A stretch of 64,000 bases of DNA, from positions 1,550,001 through 1,614,000 of the forward strand of contig NZ_CP106855.1 of NCBI RefSeq assembly GCF_002209355.2, in the 5' to 3' direction. The stretch comes from Bdellovibrio sp. SKB1291214. Its GTDB lineage: Bacteria > Bdellovibrionota > Bdellovibrionia > Bdellovibrionales > Bdellovibrionaceae. The position numbers and the translations under genes were made by a program. Position 1 is the first letter of the stretch; every line of letters starts with the position of its first letter. The notes under the pieces were generated by a model. The model saw nothing but the letters and a program-made list of their open reading frames with translations. It was not told where the DNA came from and made no database searches. Positions 40,306 to 57,073 of this stretch are shown here, piece by piece.

Positions 40306-42390
<2,085 letters not shown>

Positions 42391-42399
42391 CCAAAAATA

Positions 42400-42427
42400 A
42401 AAACCCACAGTTTTCACCGTGGGTTTT
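42400..42427. terminator. Bidirectional terminator between ligA and the histone gene
   Basis: AAAACCCAC and GTGGGTTTT arms with an 11-base spacer between the convergent genes. Confidence 0.75.
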
Positions 42428-42452
42428 CCTTTATCGATTCTAATTTATAAAA

Positions 42453-42647
42453 TTAGATATGGTCGATAACGATATCGCGAGCCATAACTGTTTTACGGCC
42501 GTCTGCTTTTGCAGACTCTACGCCTTTAAGGCAAAGTTGCTCGATAGCTTTGCTGAGAACGTCGATAGTTTCAGCAGAAGTATTCATGCCACCTTTTTCT
42601 TTGATAAGTTTTTTCACTTTGCTAGTTACAACAAGTACTTCTGCCAT
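42453..42647 (-). CDS. Bacterial histone (singlet histone fold)
   Basis: 64 residues that form a single histone fold: helix 1 (VTSKVKKLIKEKG), loop, long helix 2 (about 24-47, SAETIDVLSKAIEQL...), loop 2 with D-G-R51-K52-T53, and helix 3 (VMARDIVIDHI). RKT in loop 2 and the Asp of ARDI correspond to the DNA-contacting RKT and the Arg-Asp pair of archaeal histones. I recognise it as closely similar to the Bdellovibrio bacteriovorus histone Bd0055, reported to be abundant, to dimerise and to coat DNA in an unusual edge-on manner. GGATGGAGAG lies 8 bases before ATG. Monocistronic, convergent with ligA. Confidence 0.92.
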   Translation of the reverse strand: MAEVLVVTSKVKKLIKEKGGMNTSAETIDVLSKAIEQLCLKGVESAKADGRKTVMARDIVIDHI

Positions 42648-42752
42648 GATGACTCTCCATCCTTAGTTAAAAATTGAACAGTAAAAGGTTTGCATAAGGG
42701 ACCTATAATTGACAATGGGAAATCTTTTTTGCGGCGCAATAATGCTAAGCGC

Positions 42753-44219
42753 TTAAGCGCCGCGGTTAGATCCCAACATTACTTCGGAGGTTCCGTCCAC
42801 AAACTTACAGAGTTCTGCTTGGCGAGAATTATGTTCACCTGGAGAAATCCACACGAAAGTTTTCTGATCCAGGGGTTTTGTGCACTCAACATCCAAGAAT
42901 GCTGGTGACCAGCATCCACTGTTCAGATGTTCCACTGAACCTATGATTTCATGTCTGGTGTGATGAGTATGCCCGTACACAATACGTTTAACTTTGGTGA
43001 TCGCGCTAGACATTGCAAGAACCCGATCATCCGGCTCCTTATAGCTGGAAACCAAAGATGTGACCGATTTGCTGTAAAACAAAAAGAAAGGCAGCAGCAT
43101 AAAAAGTGGAATAAACGCCCAAAAGAAAGAAATCTCGTACACCGACCGAACAAACACCATCAACTCAAAGATCAAAAAGAACGCGATGAAAACAATAAAG
43201 GCGCGATCAAGCCACAACTCGCGGGCCAATAACATTGGCTCACTGGCTGCCGGTGCGACAAAAAGTTCCTTTAGCTCTCGAACCATGCGTGGTTCTGCAT
43301 TGGCTTTTTCAGCAATAACTTGGATTCGGTCCTCAATTTTTAAGGGGTTACGAATCGGTGCTGACAGGCGGTCAAAGAAGGAATGAATTAACGTGGCAAC
43401 AGAACCCCAGAACCAAGTGAATACCAATCCTGGTTGAGCGCGCCATATGTACTTAAAGAAAAACAAAATGTATTCCTTTAAAGTCATAATGTAATTGCTG
43501 TCCACGTGAGGATTAAAAAATCCCATTCCGTTTGAAATATAGCGACAAGCCAAGTTGCCGAATGGAAGCTTTAAAGCGATGTAATTATAACCACGGACAA
43601 AGGGATTTACCGGGTCTTCACACATGCAATACGGATCATACTGATTACCGTGCTCGATCAGAGTGTCCTGATTGCTGATGTAAAACCATTCGACAAAGCG
43701 GACTTCTTCACGTTTATCATCCGGTAAGTTTAGATGCTTCATGATTTCGTCTTGTACTTCAAGAAAGTGTAATTCGAGATCATGATTACCGATAACAAAG
43801 ACCGCACGATTCCCGCGAACGATAAAGTCACGTAAAGATCTTACGAATGGCATATGATCGCGCAGAATCACTTCGATCTTGTGACGAGAACGCTCCGCGC
43901 GTGGGTAAAGGCCGCGATGCTTTTCAAGCCAGCTTACACGGAAGACAGGTTCTTCCGGCATGTTCAACACGCTGTCGAAATCAAAGATGTCGCCGTTCAA
44001 AACTAGTTCAACGGGGTTTCCTTGAGCGCGCTCCTCGATATGTCTCAGAAATGTTTCAAAAACATCATCATAGAAAAACTGACGAGTCTTAAACTTTTTC
44101 CATAGAGGGAAGCGCAAATTAACCGGCTCTGCCTCAGTTAGATGCAGGTCGCTTATGATCGCTGTATATTGCGCTGATTTAAAATCAGACTTTGGATGCG
44201 CAAAAAAAGAAGTGGGCAA
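42753..44219 (-). CDS. Membrane-linked metallophosphoesterase
   Basis: 488 residues from TTG 44219, which has a strong AGGAGGGAG five bases upstream. Calcineurin-type phosphoesterase motifs: IISDLHL, LVLNGDIFDF, VIGNHDLELHF near the N-terminus and IVYGHTHHTRHE plus LNSGCW near the end. Between GNHD and GHTHH lies a segment of about 230 residues that includes two or three membrane helices (FIVFIAFFLIFELMVFV, FFWAFIPLFMLLPFFLFY). The family includes UDP-diacylglucosamine hydrolases, but the substrate here cannot be named. Divergent from murD, with starts only 30 bp apart; the histone gene follows 105 bp downstream. Confidence 0.75.
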   Translation of the reverse strand: MPTSFFAHPKSDFKSAQYTAIISDLHLTEAEPVNLRFPLWKKFKTRQFFYDDVFETFLRHIEERAQGNPVELVLNGDIFDFDSVLNMPEEPVFRVSWLEKHRGLYPRAERSRHKIEVILRDHMPFVRSLRDFIVRGNRAVFVIGNHDLELHFLEVQDEIMKHLNLPDDKREEVRFVEWFYISNQDTLIEHGNQYDPYCMCEDPVNPFVRGYNYIALKLPFGNLACRYISNGMGFFNPHVDSNYIMTLKEYILFFFKYIWRAQPGLVFTWFWGSVATLIHSFFDRLSAPIRNPLKIEDRIQVIAEKANAEPRMVRELKELFVAPAASEPMLLARELWLDRAFIVFIAFFLIFELMVFVRSVYEISFFWAFIPLFMLLPFFLFYSKSVTSLVSSYKEPDDRVLAMSSAITKVKRIVYGHTHHTRHEIIGSVEHLNSGCWSPAFLDVECTKPLDQKTFVWISPGEHNSRQAELCKFVDGTSEVMLGSNRGA

Positions 44220-56773: not shown

Positions 56774-57073
56774 ATGACGCCGAACCTTAACAGTTCAGAT
56801 AATCTTTTTGTCGCTAATCTTCAGTCTGTAAGCTTGGAAAAGCTTGTTAAAAGCAAACTCGAAGTTCTTTTTGCTCAACAAAAAGAAGCACAAGTTGAAT
56901 TGAACGGTTTGTACAATGTTGTAATCGAGCAAGTTGAAAAGCCACTTCTGGAGCTTGCACTTCGTGCGTACAACGGTAATCAAGTTAAGACAGCTCAGAT
57001 GCTTGGCATCAATCGCAACACTCTTAAGAAGAAAATTGATAACTACAAAATTCGTGTTAAAAAATTGAACTAA
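56774..57073 (+). CDS. Fis-family DNA-binding protein
   Basis: 99 residues, the same length as E. coli Fis. The C-terminal 45 residues LLELALRAYNGNQVKTAQML and GINRNTLKKKIDNY form the Fis helix-turn-helix with its N-R-N-T-L-x-K-K recognition helix. The N-terminal 50 residues form a helical arm as in Fis dimers. Fis-type proteins bend DNA and influence supercoiling and rRNA transcription; whether this one is a nucleoid protein or a specific regulator is not known. GGGAG precedes the ATG. Probably co-transcribed with queE. Confidence 0.85.
   Translation: MTPNLNSSDNLFVANLQSVSLEKLVKSKLEVLFAQQKEAQVELNGLYNVVIEQVEKPLLELALRAYNGNQVKTAQMLGINRNTLKKKIDNYKIRVKKLN

Follow-up and report, generated by a model that had tools for sequence, protein, structure and literature searches.

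The histone locus

The window (the whole 64,000-nucleotide stretch of Bdellovibrio sp. SKB1291214 DNA that was analysed) carries a short histone gene that converges on ligA across a gap of 62 bp, beside the DNA ligase gene as the sequence-only reading had placed it. On the other side, 105 bp upstream and on the same strand, lies a gene for a calcineurin-like phosphoesterase (Table 1). Histone and ligA probably have a terminator hairpin in common; the terminator scan found one site against 0.4 expected in shuffles, and similar hairpins can be made out by eye in many of 27 rows examined.

Table 1. Features of the histone locus and of the Fis-like gene elsewhere in the window
Feature	Position in window	Strand	Basis or remark
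ligA, NAD-dependent DNA ligase	40324..42390	+	ORF as listed; true start may be further in
Probable terminator hairpin common to histone gene and ligA	42399..42428	.	13 pairs (G-T allowed), then T-run
Histone CDS, 64 aa, Bd0055/HBb orthologue	42453..42647	-	ORF list, Pfam, PDB match, relatives
Conserved 5' region, about 100 bp	42648..42746	-	genus alignment, sequence model R1
GGAGAG, probable ribosome-binding site	42653..42658	-	sequence
TATGCAAACC-TTTTA block	42682..42696	-	TATGCAA in 24/24 genus genomes
TTGTCA block, -35-like (putative)	42710..42715	-	24/24 genus genomes
9-bp palindrome TGCGSCGCA	42730..42738	.	exact in 18/24 genus genomes
Calcineurin-like phosphoesterase	42753..44219	-	ORF list, domain match
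Fis-like HTH_8 protein, 99 aa, outside histone locus	56774..57073	+	domain search

The minus-strand ORF runs from ATG to stop and its product begins MAEVLVVTSK...GRKTVMARDIVIDHI; read on the plus strand, the same interval encodes no histone. Alignment with Bd0055/HBb of Bdellovibrio bacteriovorus (PDB chains 8fvx and 8cmp; further entries 8fw7, 9ezz and 9f0e), the comparison suggested beforehand, covers residues 1–64 of two proteins of equal length without a gap, with 62 of 64 residues identical (E about 3e-34). The only differences are glycine for glutamine at residue 20 and isoleucine for leucine at residue 64. The protein exceeds the cut-off of Pfam PF00808 (23.1 against 21.4 bits), and R51, K52, T53 and D58 can be read directly from it, which bears out the description of a 64-residue histone-fold protein with an RKT loop and its matching aspartate. 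NCBIfam NF043032 was matched at E 1.7e-7 but scored 31.6, below its own cut-off of 50. Because the PDB and PF00808 matches exclude a chance ORF, this is a genuine gene, the orthologue of Bd0055/HBb in another Bdellovibrio species. This type of histone is already known from the published B. bacteriovorus orthologue, and what we describe is a second species' copy.

Conservation and genomic neighbourhood

All 59 genomes searched (58 relatives from the genus, family and order, and the window's own) have a histone match at E ≤ 0.01, and in 58 of them the copy is HBb-like, with at least 70% identity. The count is 58 rather than 59 because the match in G031, a genome 72% complete, is just 48% identical and lies in a long frame resembling the one of the second histone described below. 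In the genus, the copies of all 24 genomes (own included) are 91–100% identical. Across the phylum, at least 317 of 368 genomes give a match at E ≤ 0.001, as do at least 212 of the 234 more complete ones; these are counts of histones, not of orthologues, since many matches outside the order are weak and possibly belong to other histone classes.

In genus genome G006, whose histone has the same letters as Bd0055, the gene differs from the window gene by 24 codons, 22 of them synonymous and two non-synonymous; beside this near-unchanged histone, the portion of LigA compared (residues 532–688) is 79.6% identical. Across the genus the sequence of the best-studied bacterial histone hardly changes while neighbouring genes drift, which supports its importance, and the window gene provides a second species in which to test its function.

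Protein searches found one histone in the window's own genome and no second at E 0.01; another PF00808 match there, at E 1.04, was taken as chance. A second histone match occurs in 7 of the 24 genus genomes, and in two of these, G006 and G015, it has a cysteine-rich start like the published ZZ histones. The 178-aa protein of G006, probably Bd3044, resembles the window protein in its C-terminal HBb-like histone domain, a likeness seen in relatives, and differs in having the zinc-finger part that the window protein lacks. Three genomes of the same order also have divergent histones whose fold is preceded by a lysine-rich N-terminal tail (L125, L127 and L129, in G047, G058 and G051); most bacterial singlet histones are said to be without long tails (PMC10627809).

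Codon usage predicts high expression of the histone. Its codon adaptation index (CAI) is 0.744, against a mean of 0.484 (s.d. 0.092) for 37 window ORFs of at least 600 bases, selected mechanically and without overlap, none of which reaches the histone value. The reference set comprised 21 ORFs of the ribosomal-protein region (ATG starts only; EF-G and SecY included by reading), whose genes average 0.713 on their own scale; rplI scores 0.787 and the Fis-like gene 0.682. An index over 64 codons is noisy, and 2.1% of 242 window-ORF fragments of the same length score as high.

The phosphoesterase gene is adjacent upstream on the same strand at all 24 genus loci, and ligA lies within the fetched flank at 18 of them, about 1 kb away in four of the 18; a short, weak ligA match at one more locus (L012) was excluded. 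The tightest neighbour is therefore the metallophosphoesterase gene, not ligA. The convergent arrangement and the probable common terminator would suit a protein that serves ligA locally, as a DNA-binding regulator or in repair, instead of acting on the nucleoid as a whole. We consider such a role very unlikely, given that ligA, apart from that one weak match, was not found in the fetched flank of 6 of 24 loci, that the histone gene has high codon bias and that HBb binds the whole chromosome in DAP-seq without sequence preference (PMC11317129).

Histone and dnaA are 43.8–60.5 kb apart in 18 of 18 scorable genus genomes, namely those with both genes on one contig (the other six of 24 were dropped; in G023 the distance runs across the record start, the record being taken as circular). 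As these genomes share gene order, the 18 distances amount to one observation.

Functional residues and histone class

In the HBb papers, DNA contacts are assigned to T8, S9, K10, K12, T23, S24, A25, K52, T53 and R57 and a clamp to R51–D58, together with D49 (PMC11317129); archaeal-like substitutions at A48, S45 and I61 allowed end-to-end FRET (PMC10627809). Every one of these contact, clamp and dimer-keeping residues is unchanged in the window protein. The corresponding columns are invariant when the window protein is aligned with 17 of the 29 other loci returned by the relatives search (18 sequences in all), save A25 and S45, which are nearly so. A separate alignment of seven sequences, which took in the viral-contig protein described below and more distant relatives, has 22 invariant columns, among them T8, S9, K12, T23, K52, T53, R57, D49, R51 and D58; K10, S24, A25, S45, A48 and I61 vary there.

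The loop had been called archaeal-type, a label that fits loop L2 and not the remainder of the protein. The histone fold, the RKT loop and the R–D clamp residues of the HMf histones are all present, the clamp contact itself being known from the HBb structure papers. The stretch matched to HMfA is four residues shorter in the window protein (query 11–61 against chain 9–63, or 51 against 55 residues), and the printed alignment to 8bdk shows a four-residue gap. Neither the HMf tetramer histidine (H49) nor a full alpha-2 was found: the position named in PMC10627809 is A48, and the matched stretch is the shorter one.

We considered whether the gene could have come from archaea and encode a canonical nucleosomal histone of archaeal type, which would wrap DNA in hypernucleosomes. 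Besides the shared RKT loop and clamp aspartate, the protein has weak matches to HmvA (8bdk, E 1.5e-4), which we take to be archaeal, to Archaeal histone A (E 0.001) and to HMfA and HMfB (E 0.06–0.35). The HBb match is far stronger, and recent transfer is rejected because the histone occurs throughout the genus and is syntenic there. With the shortening relative to HMfA, and with A48, S45 and I61, reported to prevent wrapping, as in HBb (PMC10627809), this origin and mode of action are highly improbable.

A short alpha-2 has been reported for HBb, and a 'bacterial dimer' class of histones has been described (PMC11390915). In the window protein, the gapless HBb match and its 51 residues against the 55 of HMfA indicate such a short alpha-2, its identity to HBb groups it with that class (by sequence match rather than CLANS clustering), and the RKT...D motif of loop L2/alpha-3 is in place. 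Judged from its sequence, it falls in the bacterial dimer class, an assignment based on the four-residue shortening and the Bd0055-like tetramer positions. From the identical S45, A48 and I61 we infer a dimer in solution that would not wrap DNA. We also weighed a tetramer of the face-to-face (FtF) kind, an alpha-3 histone that wraps about 60 bp as Leptospira HLp does, and find it scarcely credible: the alpha-3 superfamily is the same, the phylum includes FtF histones (PMC11390915, PMC12701072) and chains 9qt0, 9qt1 and 9qt2, named HLp in PMC12701072, match weakly (E 0.003), against 97% identity to HBb, described as a solution dimer (PMC11317129).

A conserved region upstream of the histone gene

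The region 5' of the histone gene is better conserved in the genus than the third codon positions of the gene itself. Pairwise identity over the 24 genus loci, computed throughout with one gapped method, reaches 0.77 in the 60 bp preceding the ATG and 0.755 in positions -100 to -41. The values for comparison are 0.67 at histone third codon positions, 0.56 in the 60 bp following the stop, 0.56 in -200 to -141 (largely the end of the phosphoesterase gene) and 0.49–0.50 in shuffles. Invariant columns number 35 of 115 in the 5'-region alignment and 9 of 64 among histone third positions. At all 24 loci, 18–19 bases separate the start of TTGTCA from the start of the TATGCAA block. The palindrome TGCGSCGCA occurs once in the window and is unremarkable alone (at least one turns up in 34 of 100 shuffles); an exact TATGCAAACC-TTTTA likewise occurs at this one place only, and with three mismatches allowed there are 10 sites against 8.4 expected.

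Sequence model R1, built from the same 24 genus rows that it was then searched against, has one strong match in the window's own genome (E 8e-23) and two more at E 0.28 and 5.4, with 150 of 1,284 first-look candidates scored. When 66 genomes were searched with stricter filters (62 candidates scored in each), all 24 genus genomes matched, once each, as did eight others. By coordinates, five of these eight matches sit immediately 5' of a histone gene (G035, G208, G034, G204 and G205), and those in G207, G188 and G206 were not shown to be so placed. The core regular expression found nothing on the histone strand in G208, G034, G204 or G205, and one loose opposite-strand match in G208. The element is thus only weakly conserved beyond the genus. 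TTGTCAN{8,16}TATGCAA, the exact core, has three matches in the genome, of which one belongs to the histone and the other two differ in spacing (none for a backwards-pattern control), and we do not claim a regulon sharing it.

We read the conserved region as a putative histone promoter with a possible operator. A sigma-70 scan of positions 42300–42900 found no site upstream of the histone gene, and no -10 box was seen by eye at sigma-70 distance; one site inside the histone 3' end is near chance (0.8 expected). RNAalifold gave no structure in the 5' region (-0.5 kcal/mol, no pairs with changes on both sides), and three Rfam matches were all below gathering scores. No treatment of a histone-gene control region was seen in the parts of papers examined or in the titles of five listed papers. 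We tentatively hypothesize that TGCGSCGCA, TTGTCA and TATGCAAACC-TTTTA, at near-fixed spacing, might form a dedicated histone control element, not resembling a sigma-70 promoter and without a second strong match elsewhere in the genome, which, together with the origin-proximal site, would set histone dose during filament growth in prey. The details added here are minor: the conservation of the 5' region, its single strong match in the genome and the position of the histone gene 44–61 kb from dnaA. The region does give a concrete, testable way into the timing and dosing of a bacterial histone.

Predicted function

The gene very probably encodes a conserved, origin-proximal orthologue of HBb/Bd0055, with codons of the highly expressed type, that acts as HBb does. 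In its most likely role it would serve as an abundant protein of the nucleoid, binding DNA as dimers irrespective of sequence and bending or coating it. By analogy with HBb, it would be made in quantity during growth inside prey and fold as a homodimer, binding DNA through the ten contact residues listed above, with the R51–D58 pair holding loop L2. Nucleosomal wrapping would not be expected, because the residues that make archaeal tetramers are absent; a single dimer may bend DNA, and closely packed dimers may form a coat on it. We propose that bending or coating without wrapping would in turn make the histone a main HU-like compactor of the nucleoid, probably essential, as the B. bacteriovorus papers suggest for theirs.

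The binding mode had been called unconventional. This agrees with the sheath of HBb dimers on straight DNA reported in PMC10627809, but is contested by PMC11317129, in which single dimers bend DNA and straight filaments are given limited support by the data. A Fis-like protein had also been noted and is indeed encoded in the window; it has an HTH_8 domain but scores 61.5 bits with PRK00430, below the Fis equivalog cut-off of 99. The window's own genome also has four HU/IHF-family matches, all over the Pfam cut-off (C1 2890009, 3473406, 3070049 and 127771). With these matches and the low Fis score, a division of nucleoid roles between histone and Fis is speculation; the four HU/IHF matches could make the histone less central.

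Related histones on IMG/VR and other records

The window protein had no match at E 1 among 50,697 phage records, and a plasmid search returned seven matching records, all haloarchaeal by name and below 60% identity. Two IMG/VR contigs (L037:2986-3180 and L038:1214-1408) encode a 64-aa histone with RKTVMARD intact, over the PF00808 cut-off, which matches the HBb chains at E 3e-11 and shows 55% identity to the window protein across residues 5–59 (49% over the seven-sequence alignment). Its gene adjoins one for a BCS1-like AAA ATPase. The contigs are classed as viral from the IMG/VR entry, from PHROG matches in 5 of 10 proteins scanned (none for the histone) and from a weak terminase match in one of the two records. 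The protein looks like a different, virus-carried HBb-type histone. It appears distinct from the published 'phage histones', which share the short alpha-3 histone fold with the window protein and are said to carry a C-terminal helix and no RxTxxxD (PMC11390915), whereas the window protein has RKT...D and no extension.

A third IMG/VR record (L165:2959-3132) has a 57-aa histone-like ORF that ends in RKTVMARDI, is 35% identical to the window protein and falls below the Pfam cut-off; 1.7 kb downstream of it is the gene for a terminase large subunit that exceeds its own Pfam cut-off. An 84% identical histone was observed in a metagenome-assembled genome titled Streptomyces griseus (L072), probably a mislabelled or mixed bin.
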